A DNA stretch of 40,617 bases from an uncultured Sulfuricurvum sp. (GTDB lineage: Bacteria; Campylobacterota; Campylobacteria; Campylobacterales; Sulfurimonadaceae), in the NCBI GenBank assembly GCA_903844635.1, contig CAIMUF010000037.1, forward strand, positions 1-40,617, read 5' to 3'. Below the pieces are notes generated by a model. It was not told the DNA's origin. It was given only the letters and a program-made list of their open reading frames with translations, and made no database searches. Position numbers and translations under genes: made by a program. Of this stretch, positions 3,542-36,969 are shown piece by piece. How positions within the stretch are numbered: the stretch's first letter is position 1; every line of letters starts with the position of its first letter.

Positions 3542-4182
3542 TGGTGAACCGATTAAAAAGTATTTTTCTTTTTTCACATCTAAGCGAAACGGATTTAATT
3601 CATTTAGCCTCTATCGTAAAACTGCGATCCTTTAATAATGGTGAAATCCTTTTTTATGAGGGGACACCTTCGGATAAACTTTATATTTTACTAGACGGCG
3701 TCCTCAAAGGCTACAAAACAGATATGAAAGAAAACGAAATCGTGCTGCACTATTTTTATCCCGTTTCGTTAGTAGCAGAAATGGCAAATCTTCACCATAT
3801 TCCATTCCCTGCAACCGCAGAATTTCAAACAGACGGAAATATTTTAGAGATCGATTATCCCATTTTTGAGCGTGATTTTCTTAAAAATCCTACCGTATCC
3901 TTTGAATTGATAAAATCACTGACACAAAAGCTCAAATACCTCGAAGATATTATTACCACACGGTTAGCGCTGGACGCGACCTCTCGTGTGGCTAAATTCT
4001 TATATGAAAATGGTGATATATCCGATTCGACCAAACGTCATAAGATTGCAACGATTCTAGGACTTACCCCCGAAACACTCTCACGCTCTTTCAAAAAGAT
4101 CAAGATTCTCGGACTCATCAGTGATGAGGGTAAAAATTTCACCATCTTAAATCGAGAGGGACTAAAAGAACTTTTTTCTTAA
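3511..4182 (+). CDS. Crp/Fnr-family regulator without cysteines (DNR/NnrR-like)
   Basis: A 223-residue transcription factor with an N-terminal cyclic-nucleotide-type beta barrel (about residues 15-130), a dimerisation helix (130-160) and a C-terminal winged helix. The recognition helix reads TPETLSRSFKKI, with E188, S191 and R192 matching the E-x2-SR pattern by which FNR contacts TTGAT. The protein has no cysteine, so it cannot carry an FNR-type iron-sulfur cluster; a DNR/NnrR-like heme-NO sensor is a reasonable alternative. The start at 3511 is preferred because AAGGA lies at 3501-3505; an in-frame ATG at 3541 has no such signal. It overlaps the TonB receptor end and precedes nirS, a typical place for a nitrite/NO-responsive regulator. 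Confidence 0.88.
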   Translation: MVSTNQFETLMVNRLKSIFLFSHLSETDLIHLASIVKLRSFNNGEILFYEGTPSDKLYILLDGVLKGYKTDMKENEIVLHYFYPVSLVAEMANLHHIPFPATAEFQTDGNILEIDYPIFERDFLKNPTVSFELIKSLTQKLKYLEDIITTRLALDATSRVAKFLYENGDISDSTKRHKIATILGLTPETLSRSFKKIKILGLISDEGKNFTILNREGLKELFS

Positions 4183-4196
4183 AAACTTTTAGAAAT

Positions 4197-4239
4197 TTGA
4201 TTTATATCAATGAAGCGGCCTCCCCTTTTCAAGTACACT
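4197..4239 (+). promoter_or_regulatory. FNR-type class II promoter of nirS
   Basis: The palindrome TTGATTTATATCAA is at 4197-4210 and the -10 hexamer TACACT at 4234-4239, 23 bases on. The predicted transcript starts near 4245, about 65 bases before the nirS ATG. Confidence 0.8.
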
Positions 4240-14822: not shown

Positions 14823-17588
14823 ATGATAAGCCTAAGTGAAATCCGAAACCGCGCCCTGAAATTTCAAAAAGAGTGGGAAGGAGAGAAATACGAGCGGGGT
14901 GAGGCTCAGAGTTTTTGGAATGACTTTTTTCAGATTTTTGATGTGTCACGCCGTCGAGTAGCAACGTTTGAAGAACCGATTAAAAAACTGGGCGGTTCTC
15001 AGGGGTTTATCGACCTGTTTTGGAAAGGTCAGCTGCTCATCGAACATAAATCGTTTGGCAAAGATTTAGGACGTGCTAAAACCCAAGCATTAGACTATTT
15101 TCCCAACATCCCTGACCGTGACCTCCCGAAATTTGTCCTCGTCTGTGATTTTCAAAACTTTGAGCTGTATGATTTGGATGAAAATACAGAATATCATTTC
15201 CCACTAAACGAATTGCACAAAAATATTGAGATTTTCGCCTTTATCGCAGGGTACGTGAAAAAAGCCTACAAAGAGGAAGAACCGACCAACCGCGCCGCCG
15301 CAGAGTTGATGGGGAAACTCCATGATAAACTCCTTGAAAACGGCTATGAGGGGCATGAACTCGAACTCTATCTCACTCGCTTGCTCTTTTGTATGTTCGC
15401 TGAGGATACGGGGATTTTCCCGAAAAACGGCTTTCGAGAGTTTATCGACATCTACACCGATGAAGACGGGCGCAACTTAGGGTCTCAAATCGGTTATCTG
15501 TTTCAGATTTTCGATACCCCCAACGACAAACGTCCCAAAAGCCTCGATGAGAGCTTCGCACAGTTTCCCTATATCAACGGTTCAGTTTTCAGCGAACAAA
15601 TCCGTATCGCCTCATTTGACCGCTCCATGCGTGAAATGCTTCTCGATGCGTGTGCGTTCGACTGGAGCCTTATCAGTCCCGCTATTTTCGGTTCGATGTT
15701 TCAAGCGTCGATGGACAGTACCAAGCGTGGAGAACTCGGGGCGCATTTCACCAGTGAGAAAAACATCCTAAAAGCGATCAAACCGCTTTTCCTCGATGAG
15801 TTATGGGAAGAGTTTGAAAAGGTCAAAAAAACACCCAAACAGCTCCATGCGTTCCACGATAAAATCTCCCGCCTCCATTTCCTAGACCCCGCGTGCGGGA
15901 GCGGAAATTTCCTCGTTATCGCGTATCGAGAGTTAAAACTTCTCGAATTTGAGATTATGAAGATCACTAAATCGCTTTTACCGCTCATTCACATCGACCA
16001 GTTTTACGGGTTTGAGATCGAAGAACTTCCCAGCCGTATCACGCAGATGGCAATGCTCCTCATCGACCATCAAATGAACCTGAGAGCCGCTCAGATGTTC
16101 GGCGATCCTCATTTCAACATCCCGATAAAAGAGAGTGCAAATATCTTTAACGTTAATGCGTTGCGTGTCGATTGGGCAGATACTCTAAACGGAGGTGGGA
16201 CTTCAGTCCCGCAAATGAGCGAAGCTAAAGCATCACTTCCGAAAGTCACGATAGACTACATCATTGGGAATCCGCCATTTTTAGGTCATCATATACAATC
16301 CAAAGAACAAAAATCAGATATGGAATTAGTTTTTAATGGAGTTAAAGGCGCAGGAGTTCTTGATTTTGTATCAGCATGGTATATCAAAGCGGCACAGCTA
16401 ATGCAGGGAACAAATGCGAAAACGGCTCTCGTATCGACGAACTCGATTACACAAGGTGAACAAGTCGGGATATTGTGGCAAGAGCTGTTCAACCGTTATG
16501 GTGTGAAAATCCACTTCGCCCATCGGACATTCAAATGGAATAACGAAGCCAAACGTAACGCCGCCGTTTTTTGCGTCATCATCGGATTTGCCGCACACGA
16601 TACCAAGACCAAACGGATTTTCGAATACGAAACACCGATCTCCGAACCGCATGAAATGATGGTTACCAATATAAATTCTTATTTGGTTAGTGCTTCAGAT
16701 ATATTAATCTCAAATAGAAACAAACCAATCAGCAACATACCTTCAATGATGTATGGAAGCAAACCAACAGATGATGGAAATTTTATTTTATCAAATGAAG
16801 AAAAAATTAAATTTTTAGGAAAAGAACCTAAGGCAGAAAAATTTATAAAACCGTTCATAAGTGCACGTGAATTTCTTAATCAAGAAAAAAGATGGTGTAT
16901 CTGGCTTGTTGATGCAAAACCTGATGAGCTTAAAGAATGTCCTATGATACTGGAACGAGTTGAAAAAATTAGAAAATTTAGAAGTGAAAGTATCGCAGAA
17001 TCGACCCGAAATTATAAATTTCACACGTTATTTCGACAAGTTACCCAACCAAAAAGTGATTATATTTATGTCCCGCGACATTCCTCTGAAAGTCGAGCTT
17101 ATATACCATTTGGCTTTTTTTCAAAAGACAATATTGTAGCTGATTCAGGTTTATCAATACCAAACGCTACTCTTTATCACTTTGGAATATTGACTACAAA
17201 AATACATATGGACTGGGTCAGAGCGACATGTGGACGGATAAAAAGTGATTATCGCTATTCAAAAGATATTGTTTACAATAATTTCCCGTTTCCGCAAGAA
17301 ATCACCGACAAACAGCGCGAACAAATCGAAATCTTAGCCCAAACAATCCTCGATGCCCGCACGCAATTCCCCGACAGTTCCCTAGCCGATCTCTATAACC
17401 CTCTCACGATGCCGCCGAAACTGCTAAAAGCACATGAAGCTCTCGATAAAGCAGTGGATAAGCTGTACCGCAAAGAAGGGTTTAAATCCGATACTGAACG
17501 GGTGGCTCATTTGTTTGAGCTTAATCGTGCGTTAACAAGTTTGGTGGTAGAAGATGGTAAAATACCTAAAATGAAAGTAAAGAAATAA
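14823..17588 (+). CDS. MmeI-type (type IIL/IIG) restriction-modification enzyme
   Basis: A 921-residue single-chain enzyme combining DNA cleavage and N6-adenine methylation. The N-terminal nuclease has D64-x9-E74-H-K76, matching the D-x9-ExK site of MmeI. A helical spacer follows. The methyltransferase core has SAM motif I DPACGSGNF at 355-363 and the catalytic NPPF at 483-486. About residues 610-820 form the target recognition domain, followed by a helical C-terminus. Length equals the MmeI family norm (about 920). In this family a single methylation protects the host and no separate methylase is needed. The recognition-domain DNA (about 16650-17290) is clearly more A+T-rich than its flanks, suggesting module exchange. 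The next gene starts 4 bases later. Confidence 0.9.
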   Translation: MISLSEIRNRALKFQKEWEGEKYERGEAQSFWNDFFQIFDVSRRRVATFEEPIKKLGGSQGFIDLFWKGQLLIEHKSFGKDLGRAKTQALDYFPNIPDRDLPKFVLVCDFQNFELYDLDENTEYHFPLNELHKNIEIFAFIAGYVKKAYKEEEPTNRAAAELMGKLHDKLLENGYEGHELELYLTRLLFCMFAEDTGIFPKNGFREFIDIYTDEDGRNLGSQIGYLFQIFDTPNDKRPKSLDESFAQFPYINGSVFSEQIRIASFDRSMREMLLDACAFDWSLISPAIFGSMFQASMDSTKRGELGAHFTSEKNILKAIKPLFLDELWEEFEKVKKTPKQLHAFHDKISRLHFLDPACGSGNFLVIAYRELKLLEFEIMKITKSLLPLIHIDQFYGFEIEELPSRITQMAMLLIDHQMNLRAAQMFGDPHFNIPIKESANIFNVNALRVDWADTLNGGGTSVPQMSEAKASLPKVTIDYIIGNPPFLGHHIQSKEQKSDMELVFNGVKGAGVLDFVSAWYIKAAQLMQGTNAKTALVSTNSITQGEQVGILWQELFNRYGVKIHFAHRTFKWNNEAKRNAAVFCVIIGFAAHDTKTKRIFEYETPISEPHEMMVTNINSYLVSASDILISNRNKPISNIPSMMYGSKPTDDGNFILSNEEKIKFLGKEPKAEKFIKPFISAREFLNQEKRWCIWLVDAKPDELKECPMILERVEKIRKFRSESIAESTRNYKFHTLFRQVTQPKSDYIYVPRHSSESRAYIPFGFFSKDNIVADSGLSIPNATLYHFGILTTKIHMDWVRATCGRIKSDYRYSKDIVYNNFPFPQEITDKQREQIEILAQTILDARTQFPDSSLADLYNPLTMPPKLLKAHEALDKAVDKLYRKEGFKSDTERVAHLFELNRALTSLVVEDGKIPKMKVKK

Positions 17589-17592
17589 GCAG

Positions 17593-19497
17593 ATGGATAT
17601 TGTAGAGAAAAATTTAGCCATTATTGAAGAATGTATTCAGACTACGACTTATCAAGAAGTTGAAACGGAACGTTTTGAACTAAAAGATTTATCGAGAGGA
17701 TGGGGTGATGACTGGCAAAAAAGCGTTTGTGCTTTTTTGAACACTAATGGTGGAATCATTGTTATTGGAATAAACGATAAAAATAACTCTAAGCCTCCTC
17801 ATTATAAATTTATGGGGTATGTCAATAGTTCTGATCATGAAAATTATTTAAAAGATACTTTGCCTAAATTATTTAAAGATAGAGATGGAAGAGTATTAGA
17901 TTTGACGATAAACAATATTTTTAGATATGAGATTCGTCCTTTCATGACCGGAAACGTAGTCGTTGTCTATATAGAAAGTTTACCAGATGATGAAAAGTTT
18001 GCTTACTATCAAAATGTAGCGTATAAAAGAAGATTGACTGGCGATCATCCATTGACAAAAAGTGAAATTGATGACTATGAAGAATTAAAAAGAGAAATTA
18101 TTACTGATAAAGAGTTGAGTATTGTCAAAAATTCAACATTGGATCAACTCAATATTGATACACTAAATCAGTATATTTTGAGATACAACAAAGGAAAGAA
18201 CAAGGGAGAGACCCTGAAGGCTGATTTAAATGGTGCTTTGTCTTTTTTAACTCGTCAAGGCTTCGTGCGCGAAAATAGCCCAACTTTATTAGGTATGCTG
18301 GTTTGTGGCAACGATGTAGAGAATTACATTCAAGGAAAATGTGAAGCAGATTGCTATGTCGTCTCTCCACATAAAGTTGCGGAAAGTAAAGAGATTATTA
18401 ATGACAATATTATCGGATTGATAGAAAGAACCACCAATTACGTATGGCGTAATATCAAGGTAGGTATAGGCTATTCAAAAGGTGGAACTGCTGAACCTGA
18501 GTATCCTGAAGAGCTCTTACGTGAAAGTATCAATAACGCATTTGCACACCGTAATTACAATACAGATCGTTTTGTTATCATTGAAATCAGACCTTATGAG
18601 AGTTTAATGATAAGAAATCCTGGAGCATTTGAACGTCGTCAACGGATAACATTGGACTCAGACTATGGAAAAATTAGACGAATCGTACCCATACAAGTTG
18701 CTAGAAATCCGAAGTTAACTCATCTTCTGAAAAGTTTTGATTTTTGGGAAGGAAAAGGGCGAGGGCTAACATCGTTGATTGATGCTTGTTTAGAGAATCA
18801 GATTGATGTGCCTTATTATGTACTTACTGAGGGTGAAATTAAATTGTTTATTCCAAAAGGAAAAGTATATGATAATGAAATGGACCTTTGGTTGGGAAGT
18901 TTCGCAGGTTATATCGCAAAAAAATTAGGTAGAGAATTATCGCTTGATGAAAAAATAATGTTGAGCTTTTTTTATAAATCAGAACGCCTAAATCGAATTG
19001 AACAATATACTATCTTGCTCACTATGGATAATAATCATAAAGATATTATTGCAACACTTGAAGAAAATAAATTGATATTTAAAAACCCAATAAGTCCTGA
19101 GATTTATCCTATCTATCAAGTTGAAAGAATCTTAATGAAAAAAGAGTTTTCAAGCGAACTCAAAGAGATTTATGGTGAAGATGAATGGAGTAGCTTAAAA
19201 CAAGATTATCAAGATGTTTTGAATGCTATTTATCGACATAATATGTATTCGTCTCCATTAGAAGTGATTAGTGCAAATAATATGGGGACTCTCTTATATT
19301 TAGAAAAAAATAAAGTAGTTAATGATCCGAAATCTTTTGAAAATTATAAAAGAAAAATAAGAAATATTTTTAATCAATTGGAAATAAAGCAGTATATTCA
19401 TCGAAAAGATAAAAAAACTAAAGAAGAAAAAGGAAAGCCGGATTTTGTGATTAATACGGATTTTAGAGAGATCGGTACGCTGTTCAATCAGGAATAA
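17593..19497 (+). CDS. AlbA_2/Schlafen-domain protein with C-terminal ATPase fold (COG2865-like)
   Basis: A 634-residue protein with an N-terminal AlbA_2 (Schlafen-type) domain, containing ERFELKDLSRG and FLNTNGGIIVIGINDK at about residues 27-62. In the middle is a HATPase_c_4-like region with PEELLRESINNAFAHRNY near 305-322 and WEGKGRGLTSLIDAC near 390. The C-terminal 200 residues look like winged-helix or helical segments without a motif I recognise. Such proteins are annotated as RecG-related regulators or helicases, but no helicase motifs are visible here. The coding region is A+T-richer than the core genes around it. It begins 4 bases after the restriction enzyme, so the two form an operon and a shared defence or control role is plausible; the biochemical role is unknown. 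Confidence 0.82.
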   Translation: MDIVEKNLAIIEECIQTTTYQEVETERFELKDLSRGWGDDWQKSVCAFLNTNGGIIVIGINDKNNSKPPHYKFMGYVNSSDHENYLKDTLPKLFKDRDGRVLDLTINNIFRYEIRPFMTGNVVVVYIESLPDDEKFAYYQNVAYKRRLTGDHPLTKSEIDDYEELKREIITDKELSIVKNSTLDQLNIDTLNQYILRYNKGKNKGETLKADLNGALSFLTRQGFVRENSPTLLGMLVCGNDVENYIQGKCEADCYVVSPHKVAESKEIINDNIIGLIERTTNYVWRNIKVGIGYSKGGTAEPEYPEELLRESINNAFAHRNYNTDRFVIIEIRPYESLMIRNPGAFERRQRITLDSDYGKIRRIVPIQVARNPKLTHLLKSFDFWEGKGRGLTSLIDACLENQIDVPYYVLTEGEIKLFIPKGKVYDNEMDLWLGSFAGYIAKKLGRELSLDEKIMLSFFYKSERLNRIEQYTILLTMDNNHKDIIATLEENKLIFKNPISPEIYPIYQVERILMKKEFSSELKEIYGEDEWSSLKQDYQDVLNAIYRHNMYSSPLEVISANNMGTLLYLEKNKVVNDPKSFENYKRKIRNIFNQLEIKQYIHRKDKKTKEEKGKPDFVINTDFREIGTLFNQE

Positions 19498-22458: not shown

Positions 22459-23208
22459 GTGTCATCCATTAAAATACTTATCATTGAAGATGATGATGTT
22501 ACAGCTCTTAACTTAACACTGTCGTTGGAGGCATTCGGATATGAGGTGGTCTCCGTCGCTAATGATAAGCAAAGTGCTCAAAAAAAACTCAAAATTTACT
22601 ATCCTGACATCGTACTCATCGACATAGAGTTAAAAGGGCAGAAGGAAGGAATAGAAATAGCGCAATTTATTCGTACTAAAATGCCGCGCCCCTTTATCTA
22701 TCTCACCGCTCATTCTGGAAGCAATACACTTATAAACGCCAAGCAGACAGAGCCTTACGGCTATATAGTCAAACCTTTTGAACCACTCAATCTTCACACA
22801 ACCATTCAAATGGCACTGTATCGTTTCGAAGAAGAGCAAAAAAGATTCATCAATATCGATGAGCTAAAGAACAACAAAGAGGATCTCGAAAAACTACTTT
22901 ATGTCAAAAAAAGCTCTGATAAACCTATTGTCGAATTTGGAAAACATTATCGACATGACATTTCACTGGGAGAAACTTTTTATAAAAATCAAAAAATTTA
23001 TTTGAGTAAAACAGAGAATGCTTTTATCCGATTACTGGCTGTTAATTTTGGACGTACAGTCGATTTTGAACTCGCGATGTCGTATATTTGGGGAGAAGAA
23101 TATGTGAGTGTCAATAGTGTGCGAACTCTAGTCTGGCGTTTACGTAAAAAGCTTTCCGAAGATGTCATCAAAAATGCTTCAGGAATCGGATACTATCTGG
23201 AGGGATAA
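22459..23208 (+). CDS. OmpR-type response regulator
   Basis: A 249-residue two-component response regulator starting with GTG, with a strong AAGGAG at 22449-22454. The receiver domain (about 4-118) has the acidic pair EDDD, the phosphoacceptor in VLIDIEL (about residue 55), a Thr in YLTAHSG and the Lys in VKPFEP. The linker (120-165) is charged. The C-terminal winged helix (about 170-248), ending VNSVRTLVWRLRKKLSEDVIKNASGIGYYL, is the OmpR/PhoB DNA-binding type. No histidine kinase gene lies in the window, so its signal is unknown. It is convergent with the HPP gene, with 7 bases between the stops. Confidence 0.9.
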   Translation: MSSIKILIIEDDDVTALNLTLSLEAFGYEVVSVANDKQSAQKKLKIYYPDIVLIDIELKGQKEGIEIAQFIRTKMPRPFIYLTAHSGSNTLINAKQTEPYGYIVKPFEPLNLHTTIQMALYRFEEEQKRFINIDELKNNKEDLEKLLYVKKSSDKPIVEFGKHYRHDISLGETFYKNQKIYLSKTENAFIRLLAVNFGRTVDFELAMSYIWGEEYVSVNSVRTLVWRLRKKLSEDVIKNASGIGYYLEG

Positions 23209-24688: not shown

Positions 24689-24758
24689 ATGGTAGCCAAT
24701 CCTCAAATGGATGTTCTTGATTTATGTCAATTCGAATGATAGAGGTGTGTGCTATCAT
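24689..24758. promoter_or_regulatory. Shared divergent FNR-type promoter of moaA and crp2
   Basis: One palindrome, TTGATTTATGTCAA (24717-24730), has a -10 hexamer exactly 22 bases away on each side: TACCAT on the reverse strand (24689-24694, for moaA) and TATCAT on the forward strand (24753-24758, for the regulator). Both predicted starts place the site at -41.5. Confidence 0.75.
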
Positions 24759-24793: not shown

Positions 24794-25441
24794 ATGTTGG
24801 AACAGCTTGATTTTTTTAAAGGATGTGATCCGCAAAAACTATCCCCATTATCCATCAATACAAAAATAAAAAATTATGAAGCATCGGATATCTTAGTCTA
24901 TGAAGATGATGATATAAATCGTGTTTATTTTCTCCTTGAGGGTGAAGTAAAGTTTTATAAAGTGGATCGATTTGATAATGAGGTTTTTTTGTACACCTTA
25001 AAGGATCAAGCATTACTGACCAATATCGGTTCACTTGATTGTGATCGTATCAGTTGTTTTAGTAATGTTGAGTTTCTCTCCCGAAGCCGTGTGATGTCGT
25101 GCGATTTAAAAGCCTTTAATGAGGTTGTCAAAAATGACAATACTCTACTGATTCGACTGGTAAATCTCCTCGCGAATCAAAAACAAATGATCGATTGTAT
25201 GGTAACGATGGGAATGGTGCACGATGTCACCGCGAAAGTTGCTAAAATGCTGCACGGAAATCTTGATCTTTATAACCGTCTGAAAAAACAAGAAATATCT
25301 TATCGTCTTAATATACAGCCCGCTACACTTTCACGCGTATTGGCTAAATTTATCCGTAAAGGAATTATCATCGAAGAAGATCACAAAACACTCATTCTCT
25401 TGCCAGACGAGTTAGCACACTATTTTACGGAGGGGCTATAA
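24794..25441 (+). CDS. Second Crp/Fnr-family regulator, altered recognition helix
   Basis: A 215-residue transcription factor with an N-terminal beta-barrel sensor domain and a C-terminal winged helix. The recognition helix is QPATLSRVLAKF, with A177 where FNR has the DNA-contacting glutamate; S180 and R181 are kept. The barrel region has scattered cysteines (LDCDRISC, MSCDL) but no FNR-type N-terminal cluster. The frame is open from a GTG at 24749, but that lies upstream of the predicted transcription start; the ATG at 24794 with AAGGA at 24778-24782 is the better start. Its stop overlaps the start of the sensor gene by one base, so sensor and regulator are translated together just before the nap operon. 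Confidence 0.85.
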   Translation: MLEQLDFFKGCDPQKLSPLSINTKIKNYEASDILVYEDDDINRVYFLLEGEVKFYKVDRFDNEVFLYTLKDQALLTNIGSLDCDRISCFSNVEFLSRSRVMSCDLKAFNEVVKNDNTLLIRLVNLLANQKQMIDCMVTMGMVHDVTAKVAKMLHGNLDLYNRLKKQEISYRLNIQPATLSRVLAKFIRKGIIIEEDHKTLILLPDELAHYFTEGL

Positions 25442-26340
25442 TGCAATCCATATCTACTAAAATCCGTTGGATCGTTCTCATTCTCTCAATCAATCTAATC
25501 ACCATTATTATGGTCGATATTTGGCTCAATTCATCTCAAAAACTCGATGCCAAAGTGATCAATACCGCCGGAAAGCAGCGAATGCTTTCCCAACGTACCG
25601 TCTTAGAACTTCACCGTTTATTAGTAGATGAAGATGGAGCATACGAGCGGCTACAAAGTGCACGACAAGAATTTGATCGTAACCTTAAACAGCTTAGTGC
25701 AACGACTTCAGGCTATCAAGCATTTAAAAACGACAAAATTGAGACAACCATGAAGGAAGTACATTCTCGCTGGAATCAAATGGGAGAATTGATCGATCAT
25801 TATTTACAAGGGGATCACAACTTGTATGACCTCAAAACCATTTATGATAATGGAGATCAAACACTCAACCTCATGGACAAAGCGGTCAATCAATACGAAG
25901 AATCGATGATGGAACAGCGGATATTAGCACACCGTATCCAAATCACCCTTGCTATTATCTCTTTTGGAATCATCCTTTATATGGCACGTACAACGTTACA
26001 GATACAGCGTAATTTTGAAACCTTTTTAAATCATACACAAGCAATTAGTGGAGCAAAAAATATCGAATGCAAAGGAAATGAACTTGATATTGCCTGTTCC
26101 CATATTGAGCATTTTTTACGTAATGTCGAAGAAGCACTTCAAAGTGCGACTGATGCAGTGGAAAAAAGTGAGGCAGCAACGTCCGGACTTTATGGTGGTA
26201 CACCTGAAGCAAAAAACCTGCTCGAACAAAGTGAAGATGTGATGATTCAAGTGGGTGAAGAGCTCCATCAAACTTCCACTCGTCTTAAAAAACTCAAAAG
26301 CAATCTTGAAAAAGCCAAAGCAATGAAATATCCTTTTTAA
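25441..26340 (+). CDS. NarX/PilJ-type membrane sensor without a transmitter domain
   Basis: A 299-residue protein with one membrane segment at about 10-29, a periplasmic helical domain of about 135 residues and a second membrane segment at about 165-187. Right after the first helix is N41-TAGKQRMLSQR-52, the P-box type motif by which NarX/NarQ-like sensors recognise nitrate or nitrite (PF13675, type IV pili methyl-accepting N-terminal domain). The cytoplasmic 110 residues are charged and coiled-coil-like (LKKLKSNLEKAKAMK), with no histidine kinase, cyclase or chemotaxis signalling motif. It is therefore a nitrate-sensor module with an unknown output. Coupling to the Crp-type gene and placement before nap suggest a nitrate signalling pair, by inference. 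Confidence 0.8.
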   Translation: MQSISTKIRWIVLILSINLITIIMVDIWLNSSQKLDAKVINTAGKQRMLSQRTVLELHRLLVDEDGAYERLQSARQEFDRNLKQLSATTSGYQAFKNDKIETTMKEVHSRWNQMGELIDHYLQGDHNLYDLKTIYDNGDQTLNLMDKAVNQYEESMMEQRILAHRIQITLAIISFGIILYMARTTLQIQRNFETFLNHTQAISGAKNIECKGNELDIACSHIEHFLRNVEEALQSATDAVEKSEAATSGLYGGTPEAKNLLEQSEDVMIQVGEELHQTSTRLKKLKSNLEKAKAMKYPF

Positions 26341-26359: not shown

Positions 26360-26401
26360 TTGACTTAAGTCAAAACCTTTTTTCTTCAATTACTTTATAA
26401 T
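26360..26401 (+). promoter_or_regulatory. FNR-type class II promoter of the nap operon
   Basis: TTGACTTAAGTCAA (26360-26373) is followed 22 bases later by a perfect TATAAT (26396-26401). The predicted start near 26408 leaves a leader of about 85 bases before the preferred napA start. Confidence 0.83.
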
Positions 26402-26447: not shown

Positions 26448-26469
26448 GTTCGTCCATTATGGAGCGAAC
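26448..26469 (+). other. Possible RNA hairpin in the nap leader
   Basis: GTTCGTCC (26448-26455) can pair with GGAGCGAAC (26461-26469) with one bulged G around ATTAT. It lies between an upstream AAGGAG (26443-26448) and the AAGGGGG (26483-26489) that serves the preferred napA start, so it could hide the upstream start at 26459. Stability not computed. Confidence 0.35.
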
Positions 26470-26494
26470 AAGTGATTCCACTAAGGGGGCTTTT

Positions 26495-29284
26495 ATGTCA
26501 TTGGATAGAAGAGAATTTTTAAAAAGTGCAGCAGCAGCGTCTGCCGCAACAGCAATAGGAATGGCAGTACCTGCTTCAGTCGAAGCAGCGTCAGTTCAAG
26601 GTCAGGCAGGATGGCGTTGGGATAAAGCGGCATGCCGTTTTTGCGGAACGGGATGCGGTATCATGATGGCAACCAAAGACGATCGTATCGTCGCGGTCAA
26701 GGGTGATCCATTGGCTCCGGTTAATCGTGGTCTTAACTGTATCAAAGGATACTTTAACGCCAAAATCATGTACGGTGCGGATCGTCTTACTCAGCCGTTG
26801 TTGCGTATGAACGATAAAGGCCAGTTTGATAAGCAGGGTAAATTCAAACCTGTCAGCTGGAAACGTGCTTTTGATGAGATGGAAATTCACATCAAATCAG
26901 CTCTTAAAGAAAAAGGACCTACCGGCATCGCGATGTTCAGCTCAGGTCAGCAAACAGCGATGGAGGGTCACGCCGCACTCAAGCTAATGAAAGCGGGATT
27001 CCGTACCAACAACATCGATCCTAATGCACGTCTTTGTATGGCATCTGCTGTTACTGGATTCATGAACGTTTTTGGAGCGGATGAGCCGTCGGGTTGTTAT
27101 GAGGACATTGAACTTGCCGAAACGATTGTTGCGTTTGGTTCAAACATGGCGGAAATGCACCCTATCCTCTGGTCACGTGTCAGTGATCGTAAACTTAGTA
27201 ATCCTGATAAAGTACAAGTTGTTGTTCTATCGACCTACAAACACCGTACTATGGACTTAGCGGATGTCGAAATCATCTTCAAGCCTAATACCGATTTGGC
27301 GATTTGGAACTACATCGCTCGTGAGATTGTTTACAATCATCCTGAAGCGATGGACCAAGAGTTCTTAGATAAAAATATCGTATTTGCAACGGGTCCGGTA
27401 GACATCGGATACGGGCTTCGCGAAGATATTCATCACCCAAAATATGGGGCAAAAGAGCTCGATACTGCAGCCAAACAAAAATCTAAAGTTCTAACTGCCG
27501 ATGAGGGAGTCAGTCTTGGATATTTAGGCTACAAAGCGGGCGATACGCTGGAGATGAAAAATACTGAAACTGCTAATAAGCATTGGAAAATTTCTTTTGA
27601 AGAGTTCAAAAAAGGTCTTGCACCATATACCCTCGATTATGTAGCTCACGTTTCCAAAGGTGATGCAGATGAGAGCATGGAAAGTTACAAAGCAAAACTT
27701 CAGAAAATGGCAGATCTCTACATCGAGAAAAAACGCAAATGCTTGACGTTCTGGACAATGGGATTCAATCAGCATACACGTGGAACATGGGTTAATGAAC
27801 AAGCTTACATGGTGCACTTCCTACTGGGAAAACAAGCAAAACCGGGTAATGGTGCATTCTCACTCACAGGTCAGCCATCAGCGTGTGGAACAGCTCGTGA
27901 AGTAGGAACATTCAGTCACCGACTTCCTGCGGACATGGTCGTTATGAACCCTGCTCACCGTAAAATGGCAGAAGGGATCTGGGCACTTCCTGATGGAACG
28001 ATTAATCCAAAAGCAGGATCGCACTTTACTCAGATCCACCGTGATCTCGAAGATGGCAAGGTGAAATTTGCATGGGTCAGTGTTTGTAATCCGTATCAAG
28101 ATACCGGTAATGCAGATCACTGGATTAAAGCAGCGCGAAATATGGACAACTTCATCGTAACGTCCGATGGTTATCCGGGAATTTCAGCAAAAGTATCTGA
28201 TTTGATTTTACCAAGTGCGATGATGTATGAGAAATGGGGAGCGTACGGTAATGCAGAACGCCGAACACAACACTGGCGTCAGCAAGTCACTCCTATGGGT
28301 GATGCAATGTCCGATACATGGCAGTTTGTAGAGCTTTCTAAACGCTTTACGATCAAAGAAGTATGGGGAGCACAACCTATCCCAGGACTGGAGGGCGGAT
28401 TACCTGACGTTATGGGTAAAGCCAAAGCAATGGGATACGACGATAACTCAACGTTGTACGATGTCCTTTTTGGCAATGCACGGGCAAAAGCATTCGTATG
28501 GCCTGATCCAGTTGGCAAAGGGTATCAAAACTCTGAAGTTGAAGGCGATAAACGTAATGTGATCGGTAGTGATGGCAAACCGTTCAAAGGATATGGCTTC
28601 TTTATCCAAAAATATCTTTGGGAAGAGTATCGTAAATTTGGTGACGGGCATGGACATGACTACGCCGATTTTGACACCTATCACCGTGTACGCGGTTTAA
28701 AATGGCCGGTTGTCGATGGTAAAGAGACGTTCTGGCGTTACAACGCAAAATACGATCCGTATGCGAAAAAAGCAAACAACGGTGCATTTGCATTCTACGG
28801 TCATGCATTTAAAGAGATTCCAACCGGAAATCTAAAAGGTGTTACAAATAAAGAGTTGGTTCATTTGGAAAACAAAGCCAAAATCTTCTTCCGTCCATAC
28901 ATGGAACCAACGGAAGTGCCTGATGCAAACTATGATATTTGGCTCTGTACTGGTCGTGTACTCGAGCACTGGCACAGCGGAACCATGACAATGCGTGTTC
29001 CTGAGCTTTATCGCGCAGTTCCAGAGGCATTGTGTTATATGCACCCAGCCGATGCTGAAAAGCGTGGAGTGAAGCGTGGCGAGATGGTATGGGTAGAATC
29101 ACGCCGTGGTAAAGTAAAAGCACACGTCGAAACCCGTGGTCGTAACCGTCCTCCAAAAGGGTTGGTATTTGTCCCATGGTTTGATGAAAAAGTATTTATC
29201 AACAAAGTATGTTTAGATCATACGTGTCCGATTTCTAAACAAATCGACCACAAAAAATGTGCCGTCAAAATCTATAAAGCGTAA
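26495..29284 (+). CDS. napA: Periplasmic nitrate reductase catalytic subunit
   Basis: Molybdopterin enzyme reducing nitrate to nitrite in the periplasm. From the chosen start it has 929 residues: a twin-arginine signal ([19 protein letters not shown]), the [4Fe-4S] motif C-R-F-C-G-T-G-C with its fourth Cys in LNCIKG, the Mo-ligand cysteine in [10 protein letters not shown] and a C-terminal molybdopterin dinucleotide-binding region ([17 protein letters not shown]). Length fits the larger epsilonproteobacterial NapA type. ATG 26495 has AAGGGGG 5 bases upstream and starts directly at the Tat signal; ATG 26459 with AAGGAG 10 bases upstream would add 12 residues and remains possible. It leads the napAGHBFLD operon. 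Confidence 0.95.
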
Positions 29285-29289
29285 CGACC

Positions 29290-30087
29290 ATGAGCACTAA
29301 AACTCCTAATGATCGTCGCCGTTTTCTCCTCTCTATTGCGAGAGGGATTGGGTTGAGTGCGATGGGGGCTTTGGTCTGGAGTGCCTACGTAGGGGAAGTA
29401 AAAGCTGCTCCGCTGGTTTTACGCCCTCCGGGAGCGCTGGATGAAGCGGAGTTTATCAAAAACTGTATCAAATGCGGTTTGTGTGTGGAAGCGTGTCCGT
29501 ATGACACTCTGATATTAGCGCGTCCTGGGGACAATCTCCCCATCGGGACACCGTTTTTTACCCCACGATCTGTACCTTGTTATATGTGTACCGATATTCC
29601 TTGTGTACCTGTGTGCCCAAGCGGTGCATTGAACGAACCATCCGTAAGCAGCTATGTGAAAAACAAAGCCGTTTTGGACATCAATAAATCGCGTATGGGT
29701 TTAGCGGTGGTCGATGAGAGTTCGTGTATCGCCATGTGGGGAATCCAGTGTGATGCGTGCTACCGTGCGTGTCCGCTTTTAGGCGAAGCCATTACGATCG
29801 AAACATCCAAAAATGAACGTACTGGAAAGCATGCATTTTTAAAACCTGTTGTTCATGCGGATGTGTGTACAGGATGCGGGATGTGTGAGCATGCGTGTGT
29901 TACTGAAATCGCCGCTATCCATATTCTTCCCAGAGCATTAGCCATGGGGAAAGTGGGAGACCATTACATAAAAGGATGGGATAAAGCGGATGAAAAACGG
30001 TTAGAAGGAGCCTCGATAGAGGTCACTAAAACCAAAATGAGTGAAAAAAGTGCGCTTGATTCACTCAATGACGAAGGAGGATTATAA
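29290..30087 (+). CDS. napG: Ferredoxin-type quinol dehydrogenase component NapG
   Basis: A 265-residue periplasmic iron-sulfur protein that with NapH carries electrons from menaquinol to the NapAB complex. The N-terminus DRRRFLLSIARGIGLSAMG is a Tat signal. Four [4Fe-4S] motifs follow: CIKCGLCVEACP (about 58-69), CYMCTDIPCVPVCP, CIAMWGIQCDACYRACP and CTGCGMCEHACV. Since no napC is present, NapGH is the likely sole electron entry. The start lies 5 bases after napA; the stop overlaps napH by one base. Confidence 0.93.
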   Translation: MSTKTPNDRRRFLLSIARGIGLSAMGALVWSAYVGEVKAAPLVLRPPGALDEAEFIKNCIKCGLCVEACPYDTLILARPGDNLPIGTPFFTPRSVPCYMCTDIPCVPVCPSGALNEPSVSSYVKNKAVLDINKSRMGLAVVDESSCIAMWGIQCDACYRACPLLGEAITIETSKNERTGKHAFLKPVVHADVCTGCGMCEHACVTEIAAIHILPRALAMGKVGDHYIKGWDKADEKRLEGASIEVTKTKMSEKSALDSLNDEGGL

Positions 30088-30902
30088 TGAAAAATTATCG
30101 CTATTTAATCCTCCGTCGTTTGACGCAAATCACACTCATGGTTCTTTATATAGGAGCGAATGTGTGGGGATGGAAAATGCTCAGAGGTAATCTCAGCACT
30201 TCCTCTATATTGGGAACGATTCCTCTTAGCGATCCCTACGCAGTCATTCAAATTGCTGTTACGGGTGCAAGCTTAGGGATGGATATACTGCTTGGTGCTT
30301 TAATCGTGACACTTTTTTATGGTGTTATCGGTGGTCGTGCCTTTTGCAGCTGGGTGTGTCCTATCAATATTATTACCGATACGGCGGCATGGCTGCGTCG
30401 AGCTTTGAAATTTTCTGAAGTGCAGAAACGATTTTATATGAGCCGATCATTACGCTATTGGATTTTGGGTTTGAGCTTAATCCTTTCTGCTCTTATGGGA
30501 GTAGCAGCGTTTGAACTTATCAGCCCTATTTCAATGGCTCACCGTGGACTTATCTTCGGTATGGGGATGGGCGGCGGTGCGCTAGTCGTGATCTTTTTGT
30601 TTGATTTACTGGTACATGAGAATGGATGGTGCGGATATGTGTGTCCACTGGGTGCGACGTATTCGCTTATCGGGAAATTTTCCCTTATCCGTGTTTTTCA
30701 TGATGCTGAAAAATGTACCGATTGTCGCAGTTGCATCACGGTGTGCCCTGAAAAAGAGGTCCTTCATATGATCAATCGCAGCAGTGAAAGTGTACTTATG
30801 GGTGAGTGCACAAATTGTGGCAGATGCGTAGATGTCTGTCAAGAAGACGCGCTCGGATTTTCGATCCGAAGTTTCACAAAACAACCAAAGGATGAAGAAT
30901 GA
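30087..30902 (+). CDS. napH: Membrane ferredoxin-type quinol dehydrogenase NapH
   Basis: A 271-residue membrane protein with four transmembrane helices, the cytoplasmic motifs CSWVCP and CGYVCP (each C-x3-CP, family hallmarks), and two C-terminal [4Fe-4S] motifs CTDCRSCITVCP and CTNCGRCVDVCQ. It is thought to oxidise menaquinol and pass electrons to NapG. It overlaps both neighbours (napG by one base, napB by four), which indicates tightly coupled translation. Confidence 0.93.
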   Translation: MKNYRYLILRRLTQITLMVLYIGANVWGWKMLRGNLSTSSILGTIPLSDPYAVIQIAVTGASLGMDILLGALIVTLFYGVIGGRAFCSWVCPINIITDTAAWLRRALKFSEVQKRFYMSRSLRYWILGLSLILSALMGVAAFELISPISMAHRGLIFGMGMGGGALVVIFLFDLLVHENGWCGYVCPLGATYSLIGKFSLIRVFHDAEKCTDCRSCITVCPEKEVLHMINRSSESVLMGECTNCGRCVDVCQEDALGFSIRSFTKQPKDEE

Positions 30903-31507
30903 AAGCAAAAAAAATGATGAGCAGCTTCATTGCTGCTTCACTAATTATTAGCGGTCTTTACGCTGGAAATACCTCTATAGATGAAACACAGCTGGGGATG
31001 CGCAGTGCTGATTTATACACTGAAGACACAGCTAAACCAGATGGGACTAACTATCACACTGAAGCTCCCGGAACGTCAAAGAAAATTCCGCGTGCGTATA
31101 CCAATGCACCGCCGATGATTCCTCATGAAATTGACAGTCTAGGCGAGATTGATAAAAATAACAATGCGTGTCTGGGATGTCACATGCCTGAAGTCGCTCC
31201 AAGTGTTGGGGCAACATCGATTCCAAAATCACATTTCACCAACTTTAGACCAGCGGTTGAAGATGATGCGGATGATAACTTTAAATCCGAAAGTAATGAT
31301 GTTATTATCAAAAAAGATTTGCATGGACAGTTATGGCAAGGACGTTACAACTGTACCCAATGCCATGCCCCGCAAACTCAAGGGAAGCTGCGAGTAGAGA
31401 GCAGTTTCAAACCGGACTATACGGATAAAAAAGGACAAAAACACAAAAATCACTCGTACCTTATCGATGAGCTTGACATCGGTGTCAAAGTCGGAAACGG
31501 ACTATAG
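30899..31507 (+). CDS. napB: Diheme cytochrome c subunit of nitrate reductase
   Basis: A 202-residue periplasmic diheme cytochrome that feeds electrons to NapA. A signal peptide covers about residues 1-22. Heme sites are C91-L-G-C94-H95 and C152-T-Q-C155-H156, with extra histidines upstream (NYHTEAP, IPHEIDS, KSHFTNF) for bis-His ligation, as in known NapB proteins. ATGA overlap with napH. Confidence 0.94.
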   Translation: MKAKKMMSSFIAASLIISGLYAGNTSIDETQLGMRSADLYTEDTAKPDGTNYHTEAPGTSKKIPRAYTNAPPMIPHEIDSLGEIDKNNNACLGCHMPEVAPSVGATSIPKSHFTNFRPAVEDDADDNFKSESNDVIIKKDLHGQLWQGRYNCTQCHAPQTQGKLRVESSFKPDYTDKKGQKHKNHSYLIDELDIGVKVGNGL

Positions 31508-31509
31508 TC

Positions 31510-31986
31510 ATGCAAACGGCGAAAAGAGGAGGATTTTTTGGTGCTCTTTCGGCACTCTTTAATGACGTAAAATCTTCTACTCGCCCGCCATATGCGCTTT
31601 TGAATGAAACATTTGAAGCGTGTAAAACATGTGAAGCGATGTGTGTAACTGCGTGTGAAGAGAACATCATTCGTCTTGATGATCAGAAAATCCCTTTTTT
31701 GGATTTTAAAACGACAGGATGCAGTGATTGTCACAAATGTATGGAAGTGTGTACTCCGAATGTACTAAATGATCCAAATCGTTTCATACAAGGCCATGCG
31801 AAAATCACCATGATGAATTGCATGTCCCATCACGGGACGATTTGTTTCTCCTGCAAAGAGCCGTGCTTAGAGAACGCAATTGTCTTCAAAGGCATGTTGC
31901 ATCCCATTATTCTCCCTGAAAAATGTACAGGGTGTGGTTATTGTATCGGAGTGTGCCCCAGTGGTGCGATTGAGATGGTAGCATGA
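31510..31986 (+). CDS. napF: NapF-like cytoplasmic ferredoxin
   Basis: A 158-residue cytoplasmic iron-sulfur protein with no signal peptide. Cysteine-rich motifs are CKTCEAMCVTACE, CSDCHKCMEVCTP, CFSCKEPC and CTGCGYCIGVCP, giving three to four [4Fe-4S] sites. NapF proteins are thought to help mature NapA before export by interacting with the apoprotein. Its end overlaps napL by four bases. Confidence 0.88.
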   Translation: MQTAKRGGFFGALSALFNDVKSSTRPPYALLNETFEACKTCEAMCVTACEENIIRLDDQKIPFLDFKTTGCSDCHKCMEVCTPNVLNDPNRFIQGHAKITMMNCMSHHGTICFSCKEPCLENAIVFKGMLHPIILPEKCTGCGYCIGVCPSGAIEMVA

Positions 31987-32921
31987 AACTTTTATTTATC
32001 TTTTTACTTTTCATTGTTGCTGGTATTGCATCCGTTATTGCCCCCTCGTTAACACTAAAAACCGATGGGTTAATCAGCGATATGGTGGTTCGTGAAGGAA
32101 AAATTTATGCCTCAACAGATTCAGGAATTGTAAACATTTTTGATAGTGTATCAAAACGTAAACAAAGTTCCATAACTGCGCCAAACGTTTCCATTTTAGG
32201 CAAAGTTTTTACCCCAAAAATCTATTCTGTCGATCATTTAGCAGGCTCTACGGTTATGGTGAGCGAGAGTGGTGAATCTTTTCGAAATGTTTATCTATGG
32301 CGCGACAATAAGATGCTAAAAGTTATTGATAATTCGAGAGGATTATTGATTAAAAAAGTTCGTTTTCTTGATGTAAGTCATTTACTCTTCGGACTCTCTG
32401 GTGATACAATCGTTCTGATGGATTTGAACAAGCGAACACTCGTCTACCAAATACAAGCCGGTGGAGGAGTGTTTGGAGATATGGCACTTAGCCCTAAAAA
32501 ATCACTCTTAGCCGTAGGCGATGAGAGCGGTGAAATTGTACAAATCGAGACACTCAGCGGTCGAAAAATAAAAACGCTCAGCGGACTCAACCTGGATGCA
32601 ATCAATGGGCTCTCCTATCAACAAAACACCATCCTCAGCGGTGGGCACGATCGTCGTGTAGGGGTTTATCGTCCAAAGGGAAGTTATTTTATCGAAACCG
32701 ATTTTTTCGTCTATGCAGTAGGACTTAGCCCTTCAGCATCCAAAGGGGTTTATACCGATGGGGATGAAAATGAGTTACAAGTTTTTGATATAGAAACGCA
32801 AGGAAAAATCGCACGATTAAAAGGGGGAGAAACCCTTTACGATACGCTGATCTTTTTGGATGAGCATACCTTGATTGGTGCGGGTGAAGAGAATAAAATT
32901 TATTATTGGAGAATACCGTGA
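31983..32921 (+). CDS. napL: NapL, beta-propeller accessory protein
   Basis: A 312-residue protein with an N-terminal signal or anchor (MKLLFIFLLFIVAGIASVIA) and WD40-like repeat segments (MALSPKKSLLAVGDESGEIVQIE, TILSGGHDRRVGVY and others), predicted as a periplasmic seven-bladed propeller. NapL occurs almost only in Campylobacterota nap operons; its biochemical role is not well defined. The gene order supports the assignment more than any catalytic residue. Its stop overlaps the napD GTG start. Confidence 0.85.
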   Translation: MKLLFIFLLFIVAGIASVIAPSLTLKTDGLISDMVVREGKIYASTDSGIVNIFDSVSKRKQSSITAPNVSILGKVFTPKIYSVDHLAGSTVMVSESGESFRNVYLWRDNKMLKVIDNSRGLLIKKVRFLDVSHLLFGLSGDTIVLMDLNKRTLVYQIQAGGGVFGDMALSPKKSLLAVGDESGEIVQIETLSGRKIKTLSGLNLDAINGLSYQQNTILSGGHDRRVGVYRPKGSYFIETDFFVYAVGLSPSASKGVYTDGDENELQVFDIETQGKIARLKGGETLYDTLIFLDEHTLIGAGEENKIYYWRIP

Positions 32922-33268
32922 ATATTTCAAGCATTGTGGTGCAAACCAACCCAAATTTTACCGAAGAAGTAGTCGAGATTTTTAAATCTGCTGATTTTTG
33001 TGATTACCATTTTCACGATGAAAAAGGGCGCATTATCGTCACCATTGAAGGTGAAGGGGTCGAAGAAGAGATTCAAAAACTCACAAGAATTCAGTTTATG
33101 GATCATATTATTTCTGCAGATATGTCATTTGCGTACAGTGAAGATGAGCTCAATGCCGAGCGTGATAAGCTCGAAGCTGTAGGTGATGCTTTACCCGAGT
33201 GGCTGAACGATGAAAACGCTACAAAGCGCGACATCAAATACAACGGCGATCTCAAAGACCGATTTTAA
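32918..33268 (+). CDS. napD: NapD chaperone for NapA
   Basis: A 116-residue cytoplasmic protein starting with GTG at 32918, which overlaps the napL stop (GTGA) and has GGAG 6 bases upstream; the frame also runs back to a TTG at 32906 but that is less likely. The N-terminal 80 residues have the NapD ferredoxin-like fold pattern (MNISSIVVQTNPNFTEEVVE, then GRIIVTIEGE). NapD binds the Tat signal of NapA and holds it until the cofactor is inserted. The acidic C-terminal 35 residues are longer than in E. coli NapD. Confidence 0.9.
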   Translation: MNISSIVVQTNPNFTEEVVEIFKSADFCDYHFHDEKGRIIVTIEGEGVEEEIQKLTRIQFMDHIISADMSFAYSEDELNAERDKLEAVGDALPEWLNDENATKRDIKYNGDLKDRF

Positions 33269-33277
33269 AATAGCTTA

Positions 33278-33320
33278 TTGACCTAAGTCAATGACATGCA
33301 GAATCTGTTTGTCTTACAAT
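33278..33320 (+). promoter_or_regulatory. FNR-type class II promoter of the first porin gene
   Basis: TTGACCTAAGTCAA (33278-33291) is followed 23 bases later by TACAAT (33315-33320). It begins 9 bases after the napD stop, so the porin is expressed under the same conditions as nap but on its own transcript. Confidence 0.8.
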
Positions 33321-34768: not shown

Positions 34769-34810
34769 TTGACTCAAGTCAAAGACATTTATACTCAAAT
34801 CCATTACAAT
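34769..34810 (+). promoter_or_regulatory. FNR-type class II promoter of nrdD
   Basis: TTGACTCAAGTCAA (34769-34782) is followed 22 bases later by TACAAT (34805-34810), predicting a start near 34817, just before the leader hairpin. Confidence 0.83.
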
Positions 34811-34823
34811 AACCTATCTAAAA

Positions 34824-34842
34824 ATACGGCTTTTAGCCGTAT
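34824..34842 (+). other. Hairpin in the nrdD leader RNA
   Basis: ATACGGC (34824-34830) and GCCGTAT (34836-34842) are perfect 7-base arms with loop TTTTA, at the 5' end of the predicted transcript and ending 24 bases before the ATG. There is no T-run after it, so it is more likely an RNA-stabilising or regulatory stem than a terminator. Confidence 0.5.
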
Positions 34843-34866
34843 ATAAATTCTAAAAAAGGAACAATA

Positions 34867-36969
34867 ATGGGTGTAGCTAGACGTGTTTGTAAACGCGATG
34901 GATCAACAGAACTCTTTCATCTCTATAAGATTGTGGATGCAATCAAAAAAGGGTTTGAAAGCGTCTCACGCCCCTACAATCAAATCGCACTAAAATGTCT
35001 CTTGGAGAGACTCGAAACCAAGCCGCTTTGGAACGTAGAAGAGATTCAAGACATCATCGAAGAAGAACTCCATCATTCCGGTGAATTTGCAGTGATGAAA
35101 TCGTTTATAACTTACCGATTTTTACACAAAATGCAGCGTGAACACGTCGCAGGTTTATTACCCGATACTACGTTCGTAAACTCCACCCAAAGCGTTCAGG
35201 AATACATCTATAAAACGGACTGGCGCATCAATGCCAACGCGAACACAGGGTATTCGAATGCAGGACTTATCAACAATCTAGCGGGCAAAGTAGTTGCAAA
35301 TTTTTGGCTTGATTCCATCTACTCACCCCAAGAGGGAGCAGCACATCGCAACGGTGATATCCATATCCACGATCTTGATTGTCTAACGGGATATTGTGCC
35401 GGATGGAGTTTGCGTGCATTGCTTAACGAAGGCTTTAACGGCGTTCGAGGACGTGTTGAGAGCGCTCCCCCCCGTCATTTGCGTGAAGCATTGGGACAAA
35501 TGGCAAATTTTTTAGGAATACTGCAATCCGAATGGGCAGGAGCTCAAGCATTTAGCTCATTCGATACCTATTTGGCTCCTTATGTATTTATCGATGCGTT
35601 GAGTGCGGATGATGTGAAAAAAGCGATACGAAGTTTTGTCTACAATCTCAACGTCCCAGCCCGCTGGGGACAATCTCCATTTACGAATATTACCCTCGAC
35701 TGGGTTGTTCCTGAGGATTTAGCGGGGCAAATTCCTACCTATAATGATCACCATCTTTTTTCGCAAATCAGTGCAACTGCACACCATCAACGCAAGTTAT
35801 TTGAGAGTGGAAAATTTTCTCTCGAAGCACTGACATACGGCGATTTTCAAGCAGAGATGAATGTTATCAACAAAGCCTACTATGAGATCATGACCGAGGG
35901 GGACAGCGGAGGACAGCCCTTTACATTCCCGATCCCCACGGTCAATATCACCGAAGATTTCGATTGGTACGGCGAAAATACCGATATTTTGTTCGAAAAC
36001 ACTGCCAAAATCGGTTCGAGCTATTTTCAAAACTTTATCGGCAGCCAGTATCTAAAAGATGAAAACGGAGTAAAAGTAGAAAATCCAAACGCCTATAAAC
36101 CGGGAGCTGTTCGCAGTATGTGCTGTCGATTACAGCTTGATTTGCGGGAACTTCTAAAACGCGGAAATGGACTGTTCGGCAGTGCCGAAATGACGGGAAG
36201 TATCGGTGTCGTTACGATCAATATGGCACGTTTAGGCTATTTGTACGCTGGAGATAAAGATCGGTTTTTTGAGGCACTGGATGTGCTGATGGAAAGTGCC
36301 TATTCAACGTTGGAGAAAAAGCGAGTCTTTGTAAACGAGATGTTTGAACGGGGACTTTATCCCTATACGGCACGCTATTTAAAAGGATTTAACAACCATT
36401 TTTCCACCATCGGAGTCAATGGGATGAACGAAATGGTCCGTAATTTTAGCGGTGATACAGAGGATTTATCGACTCAGTGGGGAGTAGATTTTTCACTGAA
36501 TATTTTAGAAAAAATGCGCAATATCATTCGAGGTTATCAAGAGCGTAGCGGTAATTTGTACAATCTGGAAGCAACACCTGCCGAGGGGACGACCTACCGT
36601 TTTGCCAAAGAGGATAAAAAACGTTATCCCGATATTTTACAAGCAGGAGAAGGTGACAACATTTATTACACCAACAGCTCCCAAATCCCCGTTGCCTATA
36701 CCGACGACCCCTTTGAGGCACTGGAACTCCAAGACGAACTTCAGTGCAAATATACAGGGGGAACGGTGTTGCATCTCTATATGAGTGAGCGTATCGGAAC
36801 CATCGAAGCATGCAGACGAATGGTCAAAAATGTCTTAACCCATCACCGCCTCCCCTATATCACCATCACACCACTTTTTTCGGTGTGTCCAACGCATGGC
36901 TATTTACACGGCGAGCATGAGTTTTGCCCAAAATGTGACGAATTAATCTTATCCAAGGAGGTTGCATGA
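34867..36969 (+). CDS. nrdD: Anaerobic ribonucleotide reductase catalytic chain lacking its glycyl-radical tail
   Basis: Class III ribonucleoside-triphosphate reductase, 700 residues. Residues 1-95 are an ATP-cone for allosteric control. The catalytic barrel carries GDIHIHDLDC (C172), YC (C177) and RSMCC (C419, C420), matching the conserved active-site cysteine segments. A zinc ribbon closes the chain: C674-PT-H677 and C687-P-K-C690. In intact homologues this ribbon is followed within a few tens of residues by the glycyl-radical motif (RVxGY) in the same protein. Here the chain ends 10 residues after C690 (DELILSKEVA, stop) and the motif is found in the next ORF, in the -1 frame. An FNR-type promoter fits strictly anaerobic use. 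Confidence 0.9.
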   Translation: MGVARRVCKRDGSTELFHLYKIVDAIKKGFESVSRPYNQIALKCLLERLETKPLWNVEEIQDIIEEELHHSGEFAVMKSFITYRFLHKMQREHVAGLLPDTTFVNSTQSVQEYIYKTDWRINANANTGYSNAGLINNLAGKVVANFWLDSIYSPQEGAAHRNGDIHIHDLDCLTGYCAGWSLRALLNEGFNGVRGRVESAPPRHLREALGQMANFLGILQSEWAGAQAFSSFDTYLAPYVFIDALSADDVKKAIRSFVYNLNVPARWGQSPFTNITLDWVVPEDLAGQIPTYNDHHLFSQISATAHHQRKLFESGKFSLEALTYGDFQAEMNVINKAYYEIMTEGDSGGQPFTFPIPTVNITEDFDWYGENTDILFENTAKIGSSYFQNFIGSQYLKDENGVKVENPNAYKPGAVRSMCCRLQLDLRELLKRGNGLFGSAEMTGSIGVVTINMARLGYLYAGDKDRFFEALDVLMESAYSTLEKKRVFVNEMFERGLYPYTARYLKGFNNHFSTIGVNGMNEMVRNFSGDTEDLSTQWGVDFSLNILEKMRNIIRGYQERSGNLYNLEATPAEGTTYRFAKEDKKRYPDILQAGEGDNIYYTNSSQIPVAYTDDPFEALELQDELQCKYTGGTVLHLYMSERIGTIEACRRMVKNVLTHHRLPYITITPLFSVCPTHGYLHGEHEFCPKCDELILSKEVA

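Follow-up and report, generated by a model that had tools for sequence, protein, structure and literature searches.

A Crp-type gene joined to a receptor gene upstream of nap

How do bacteria of the phylum Campylobacterota perceive nitrate? They are reported to have no orthologues of FNR, ArcA and NarP; the regulator NssA is needed for nitrate induction of nap in Wolinella succinogenes, and reviews call the perception of nitrate, nitric oxide (NO) and nitrous oxide (N2O) by Nss regulators unsolved (PMC6682613, PMC8139620). The question takes a concrete form in the window analyzed here, the whole 40,617-nucleotide stretch of contig CAIMUF010000037.1 from an uncultured Sulfuricurvum sp. (40.6 kb, or 1.5% of a 2.67-Mb genome). 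Here a gene for a Crp/Fnr-superfamily regulator is followed by one for a PilJ/NarX-type membrane receptor that has no kinase, and then by nap. We propose that this pair forms a kinase-free transmembrane nitrate-response system, in which a nitrate receptor would act through a helical hairpin on Crp and hence on nap, and on balance we judge this proposal more likely than not to be correct. The pair is probably the means by which NssA-type regulators perceive nitrate.

Open reading frames (ORFs), Pfam matches and structure models define both genes on the forward strand: crp (24794..25441), encoding 215 amino acids with an alternative GTG start at 24749, and the receptor gene (25441..26340), encoding 299 amino acids with two transmembrane helices. 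They overlap by a single base (TAATG), as an earlier sequence-only reading of the window had described. That reading also placed the pair directly before nap, which is correct here but does not always apply elsewhere. The genes napA, napG, napH and napB lie downstream on the same strand; napA (26459..29284, likely start 26495) matches TIGR01706 with 1358 bits, and napG, napH, napB, a napF-like gene and two further ORFs of the cluster, named napL/napD from their position, occupy 29290..33268.

The sequence-only reading proposed to check the conservation of the pair next to nap, and surveys from both sides found the pair conserved. In the forward survey, species genomes were scanned with the Crp alignment alone and the 80 best loci were taken, all of them bearing Campylobacterota-type or unspecific metagenome-assembled-genome names. 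The receptor lies directly downstream in 79 of these 80, with a broken reading frame in one of the 79 (L164); the exception is L124, whose Crp stands before napA. From the receptor side, crp lies directly upstream in 40 of 40 loci taken from families of the phylum that have the receptor and in 110 of 110 further loci, that is, in all 150 receptor-selected loci. The locus sets partly overlap and comprise 202 distinct pairs, 157 with one PilJ domain and 45 with two. The intergenic distance is at most 20 nt in 196 pairs, and 84 share the same one-base overlap. Away from nap the pair is still intact, for example beside nrdD, moaA or nosZ. Among 104 Arcobacteraceae-like genomes, 81 have the pair and napA, three the pair only, 14 napA only and six neither, a significant co-occurrence of pair and napA (Fisher p 0.0014), and one of the three pair-only genomes, G522, holds just a nos-type pair. 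Altogether, the pair is well supported as a phylum-wide conserved functional unit in Campylobacterota, far beyond chance.

A predicted nitrate site in the receptor

Pfam analysis revealed a PilJ domain (PF13675, 1.7e-19) in the receptor, and NarQ matches it partially over residues 3-202 (3e-7). The periplasmic nitrate motif claimed by the sequence-only reading is present: residues 40-51, INTAGKQRMLSQ (25558..25593, forward strand), fit exactly the N-box consensus [IVL]-[ND]-x-A-G-x-Q-R-M-L-[ST]-Q that was defined on McpN for nitrate-binding PilJ domains (PMC6381276), and are predicted to form a nitrate site at the dimer interface. Across the 202 pairs, the strict pattern occurs in 134 and the shorter GxxRML[ST]Q in 191. 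The receptor model, with a mean predicted local distance difference test score (pLDDT) of 77 (about 70-91 in the sensor and 56-72 in the tail), superposes on the nitrate-bound domain of McpN (PDB 6gcv) with a Z-score of 16.2 over 122 residues at 21% identity, and on the sensor-transmembrane-HAMP fragment of NarQ (PDB 5iji) with a Z-score of 13.5 over residues 1-229. Motif and fold thus make nitrate the likely ligand. That the pair works as proposed with another ligand, such as nitrite or a different oxyanion, we regard as very unlikely: NarX and NarQ do bind nitrite as well, but the N-box is a nitrate-binding consensus that is missing from P. aeruginosa PilJ (PMC6381276), and the pair is linked to nap.

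In several families (L083, L087, L091, L093 and others) the receptor carries two PilJ domains in tandem and is about 455 amino acids long, with both boxes intact in some; in L093, napA is near by.

A conserved cytoplasmic hairpin without a known signalling domain

The cytoplasmic part covers about residues 187-299, some 110 residues. Judged from the superposition on NarQ to about residue 229, a HAMP-like segment containing ‘GNELD’ would follow the second transmembrane helix (residues 187-228; 25999..26124, forward strand). A Pfam HAMP domain was considered for the tail and set aside, as it is not among the recurrent matches in 80 members, and the structural overlap with NarQ ends at about residue 229. 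The model and the conservation pattern then indicate a helical hairpin of helices 214-248 and 255-296 (26080..26328, forward strand), which we propose as the Crp-docking output. Beyond residue 229 the hairpin has no clear match among solved structures, a region that was barely tested and is modelled at a pLDDT of 56-72. It carries a conserved S-E-D-x-x-I-x-x-x-E-x-L motif near 26230-26265; residues E265, L282 and L289 are invariant across 80 receptor sequences, and S264, D266, I269, E273 and L275 nearly so.

In the same 80 relatives, Pfam detected no kinase, methyl-accepting chemotaxis protein (MCP) or cyclase domain above background in the tail. The MCP signalling domain gave two weak matches (best 0.0036), no more than background; PilJ is the only family that most relatives share (77 of 80), and the remaining matches are weak and scattered. 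The HisKA_3 phosphoacceptor and ATPase domains of NarX and NarQ are likewise absent from the receptor by Pfam. The claim that the sensor has no output domain therefore holds as far as known signalling domains go, but it was worded too strongly because the tail is conserved like the sensor. Mean column entropy is 1.23 for the tail and 1.33 for the periplasmic domain; over residues 261-290 it falls to 0.81-1.12. With an entropy as low as in the sensor domain, the tail is not decaying; it is a conserved structured element and not a remnant.

A possible route from the receptor to Crp

Which partner might such a tail address? The signal could pass to an unlinked third protein (an orphan kinase, CheA or a response regulator), with Crp as a separate co-operonic regulator. 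Kinases serve NarX, NarQ and McpN alike, and an OmpR-type regulator is encoded near by (22459-23208), both of which speak for this route. Against it, the genome contains no NarX/NarQ-type (HisKA_3) kinase, the kind of partner elsewhere that the sequence-only reading had named as a threat to its proposal; no recognised kinase recurs beside the pair in the mapped loci, where most unmarked neighbours were not identified; and the tail has no MCP domain above background. We therefore consider the third-protein route quite unlikely. The genome's only other PilJ protein was considered as a true NarX and rejected, because by sequence it is a GGDEF-type protein.

Given that a NarX/NarQ-type kinase, a recurring recognised kinase neighbour and an MCP domain are all lacking, direct contact between receptor and Crp is the simplest route, and a plausible one. 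Mirror-tree analysis of 109 non-redundant pairs revealed that the effector half of Crp has a partial correlation of 0.59 with the tail and 0.44 with the periplasmic domain, a difference of 0.15 (95% 0.03-0.27) that the DNA-binding half does not show. This signal points weakly towards a coupling of tail and Crp.

A Crp regulator with a co-conserved cysteine pair

E. coli CRP contacts cyclic AMP (cAMP) through E72, R82, S83, T127 and S128, whereas FNR holds its 4Fe-4S cluster with three N-terminal cysteines and C122. Alignment against these positions showed that none of the cAMP-contact residues is kept in the Crp encoded here, and that it has no FNR-type N-terminal cysteine cluster. Its product matches cNMP_binding (8.1e-9) and HTH_Crp_2 (1e-6) in Pfam; its confidently predicted structure (pLDDT 92.9) matched Crp/Fnr structures throughout, with a best Z-score of 19.8, and the nearest solved relative by sequence is DNR of P. 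aeruginosa (PDB 3dkw; E 9.5e-5). Two cysteines, Cys88 (codon 25055..25057, forward strand) and Cys135 in the dimerisation helix (codon 25196..25198, forward strand), fall in the alignment on cAMP contacts of E. coli CRP or next to them. Both are present in 176 of the 202 pairs and neither in 22, with four discordant. In each of 4 independent contrasts with support, a change in one accompanied a change in the other in nearly all draws; four contrasts are too few for significance. Both are missing from two other stand-alone Crp-type regulators examined. The co-conservation therefore suggests a second input to Crp, possibly redox, metal or thiol, which would make it a two-input device.

The same cysteines could also carry a different explanation, in which Crp itself senses intracellular redox, NO or metal through Cys88/Cys135 or a DNR-like haem, while the receptor either modulates the response or has another task, such as signalling to chemotaxis or to Nap. 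The co-conservation and the closeness to the NO sensor DNR fit this explanation. However, it accounts neither for the near-obligate receptor nor for the swap of ligand site together with operon in the nos-linked clade described below, and both cysteines are missing in several nap-linked or N-box-intact pairs (L076 and the L029 group). We thus think it unlikely that Crp alone is the sensor.

Operators with class II geometry

A genome-wide search with the pattern TTGAY-N4-RTCAA found 50 sites, against six for the reversed pattern used as control; eleven lie in the 40.6-kb contig. Upstream of crp, the operator TTGATTTATGTCAA (24717..24730, forward strand) starts 36 bp before a -10 hexamer TATCAT (24753-24758), and the same spacing separates the operator TTGACTTAAGTCAA (26360..26373, forward strand) from TATAAT (26396-26401) upstream of napA. 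Such boxes occur in 53 of 66 receptor-napA intergenic regions, where 0.16 were expected from shuffles (maximum 2), and 46 of the 47 boxes in 59 napA upstream regions are of the TTGAC-N4-GTCAA type. In 42 of 46 napA sites, 36 or 37 bp separate the start of the operator from the -10 hexamer; for crp sites the distance is mostly 36 bp. With transcription starting about 7 bp past the -10 hexamer, this spacing puts the operator centre near -41.5, where CRP and FNR bind as class II activators. The crp box at 36 bp would accordingly allow autoregulation with class II geometry.

The box also conforms to the Nss binding consensus TTGA-N6-TCAA, and in Nitrosophilus labii the napA start predicted from RNA-seq is 49 bp away from where the box begins, in agreement with class II geometry (PMC11539149). 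Boxes of the Nss form thus stand before nap at class II spacing, a feature shared with the NssA group.

A nosZ-linked clade with a changed ligand site

Eleven of the 202 receptors lack GxxRML[ST]Q, and nine of them have an INxQKAFTQ-like sequence instead. The Crps of those nine pairs form one clade with a support of 100, and all nine pairs (L098-L100, L303-L308), from Sulfurimonas-like and Arcobacter-like genomes, lie directly upstream of nosZ. This context was known beforehand for three; the other six were fetched only afterwards, and all six were positive. NosZ was identified by TIGR04246 for two proteins and by similarity to those two for the rest. Eight nos-type loci were scanned for boxes, and six of them have TTGACC..AGTCAA before nosZ. 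The association of N-box loss with nosZ runs one way only, because at least one pair with an intact N-box (L066, and L133, probably from the same organism) also lies directly before nosZ.

A receptor pocket that changes along with the operon is expected of a single signalling line made up of receptor, Crp and operon, and the observed pattern suggests that they behave as one. The nosZ-linked receptor is, from its altered box, a candidate sensor of another nitrogen oxide. A wider proposal, in which a non-enzymatic receptor would control Crp by direct hairpin contact across Campylobacterota and would have been duplicated with a changed ligand site for nitrous oxide reductase, has in our view a little less than an even chance. 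As to the earlier suggestion of a design other than NarXL, the conditions named as refuting it did not arise (the pair is conserved, the tail aligns with no known output domain and the genome has no HisKA_3 kinase), and the nos-linked clade supports a receptor that works for the Crp and operon beside it. Direct binding would be a further step, and Crp may have a second input; the suggestion is thus supported in part.

A model for kinase-free nitrate signalling

We propose that the dimeric receptor binds periplasmic nitrate at the N-box, as the motif and fold shared with McpN, NarX and NarQ would predict, and that binding shifts the transmembrane helices and the HAMP-like segment, by analogy with NarQ. 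The hairpin would then serve as the output, contacting the co-translated Crp dimer and determining whether it is free or competent to bind TTGAC-N4-GTCAA. From promoters with the observed class II geometry, Crp would activate nap and also, in this genome, crp itself; its co-conserved cysteine pair could bring in redox or metal as a further input. We lean towards an apo receptor that holds Crp and a nitrate signal that frees it, in preference to allosteric activation by the nitrate-bound receptor, although the data fit both.

Several observations weigh against this model. The 14 Arcobacteraceae genomes with nap and no pair, together with L124, where a Crp stands before napA and the genome has no such receptor, indicate that some lineages can do without the receptor. 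The Crp-family regulators encoded at 3511-4182 (before nirS) and on contig C54 share much of the recognition helix and, by this likeness, could use the same boxes. Finally, mean-field direct coupling analysis of 157 concatenated pairs showed no enrichment of the tail (35 of the top 100 couplings against 37.7 expected), an analysis without power because the intra-protein couplings were not contact-like either.

The components of the system are known and the wiring is new. Like NarX and NarQ of E. coli, which work with NarL and NarP, the receptor has a periplasmic four-helix nitrate domain with a GxxR box, two transmembrane helices, a HAMP-like linker and a link to nap control; unlike them, it lacks the dimerisation/phosphoacceptor and catalytic domains, and its partner is a Crp-type regulator in place of a receiver-domain one. 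It shares the N-box-bearing PilJ domain and a superposing model with McpN of P. aeruginosa (PMC6381276), whose MCP signalling domain, absent from the tail here, couples to CheA. NssA, NssB and NssC of W. succinogenes and NssR of C. jejuni are Crp/Fnr regulators of Campylobacterota as well, but are described as one-component, with no membrane partner mentioned in the papers found. The paired receptor is not described in the literature searched, although the primary Nss paper lay outside it and may mention the receptor. DNR/NNR regulators sense NO by haem, whereas the likeness of the present Crp to DNR, its closest solved structure, is one of sequence similarity. Membrane proteins also control soluble or membrane regulators without a kinase in Mlc-PtsG, FecR-FecI and TcpH-TcpP; to our knowledge, none of these joins a nitrate receptor to a Crp-type regulator.

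The pair thus offers a concrete, testable answer to nitrate perception in Campylobacterota. At nosZ, which encodes the reductase that consumes N2O, it also provides a candidate receptor for another signal. Should the contact prove direct, the pair would constitute a minimal two-protein, phosphate-free route across the membrane and could readily be built into nitrate biosensors.

Neighbouring genes

The window reads as a denitrification island rich in class II promoters, most of the eleven boxes having a -10-like hexamer at +36 or +37. The operator TTGACCTAAGTCAA (33278..33291, forward strand) precedes a porin-like gene, with TACAAT at +37, and TTGACTCAAGTCAA (34769..34782, forward strand) precedes nrdD, encoding anaerobic ribonucleotide reductase, with TACAAT at +36. 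This nrdD (34769-36969) has a nap-type box, and in L120 nrdD directly follows the pair. The Crp/Fnr gene at 3511-4182, the second in the window, is directly upstream of a cytochrome cd1-type nitrite reductase gene (4311-5951) and has its own TTGATTTATATCAA box at 4197. An MmeI-like restriction-modification gene and a Schlafen/AlbA_2 gene interrupt the nitrogen-oxide island at 14823-19497. The OmpR-type response regulator gene has no adjoining kinase gene and is flanked by genes for a rhodanese and an HPP-family membrane protein. In Arcobacter-like genomes, three genes encoding about 108, 224 and 473 amino acids, with no NCBIfam match, recur after the pair (L063:1351-3776 and relatives).
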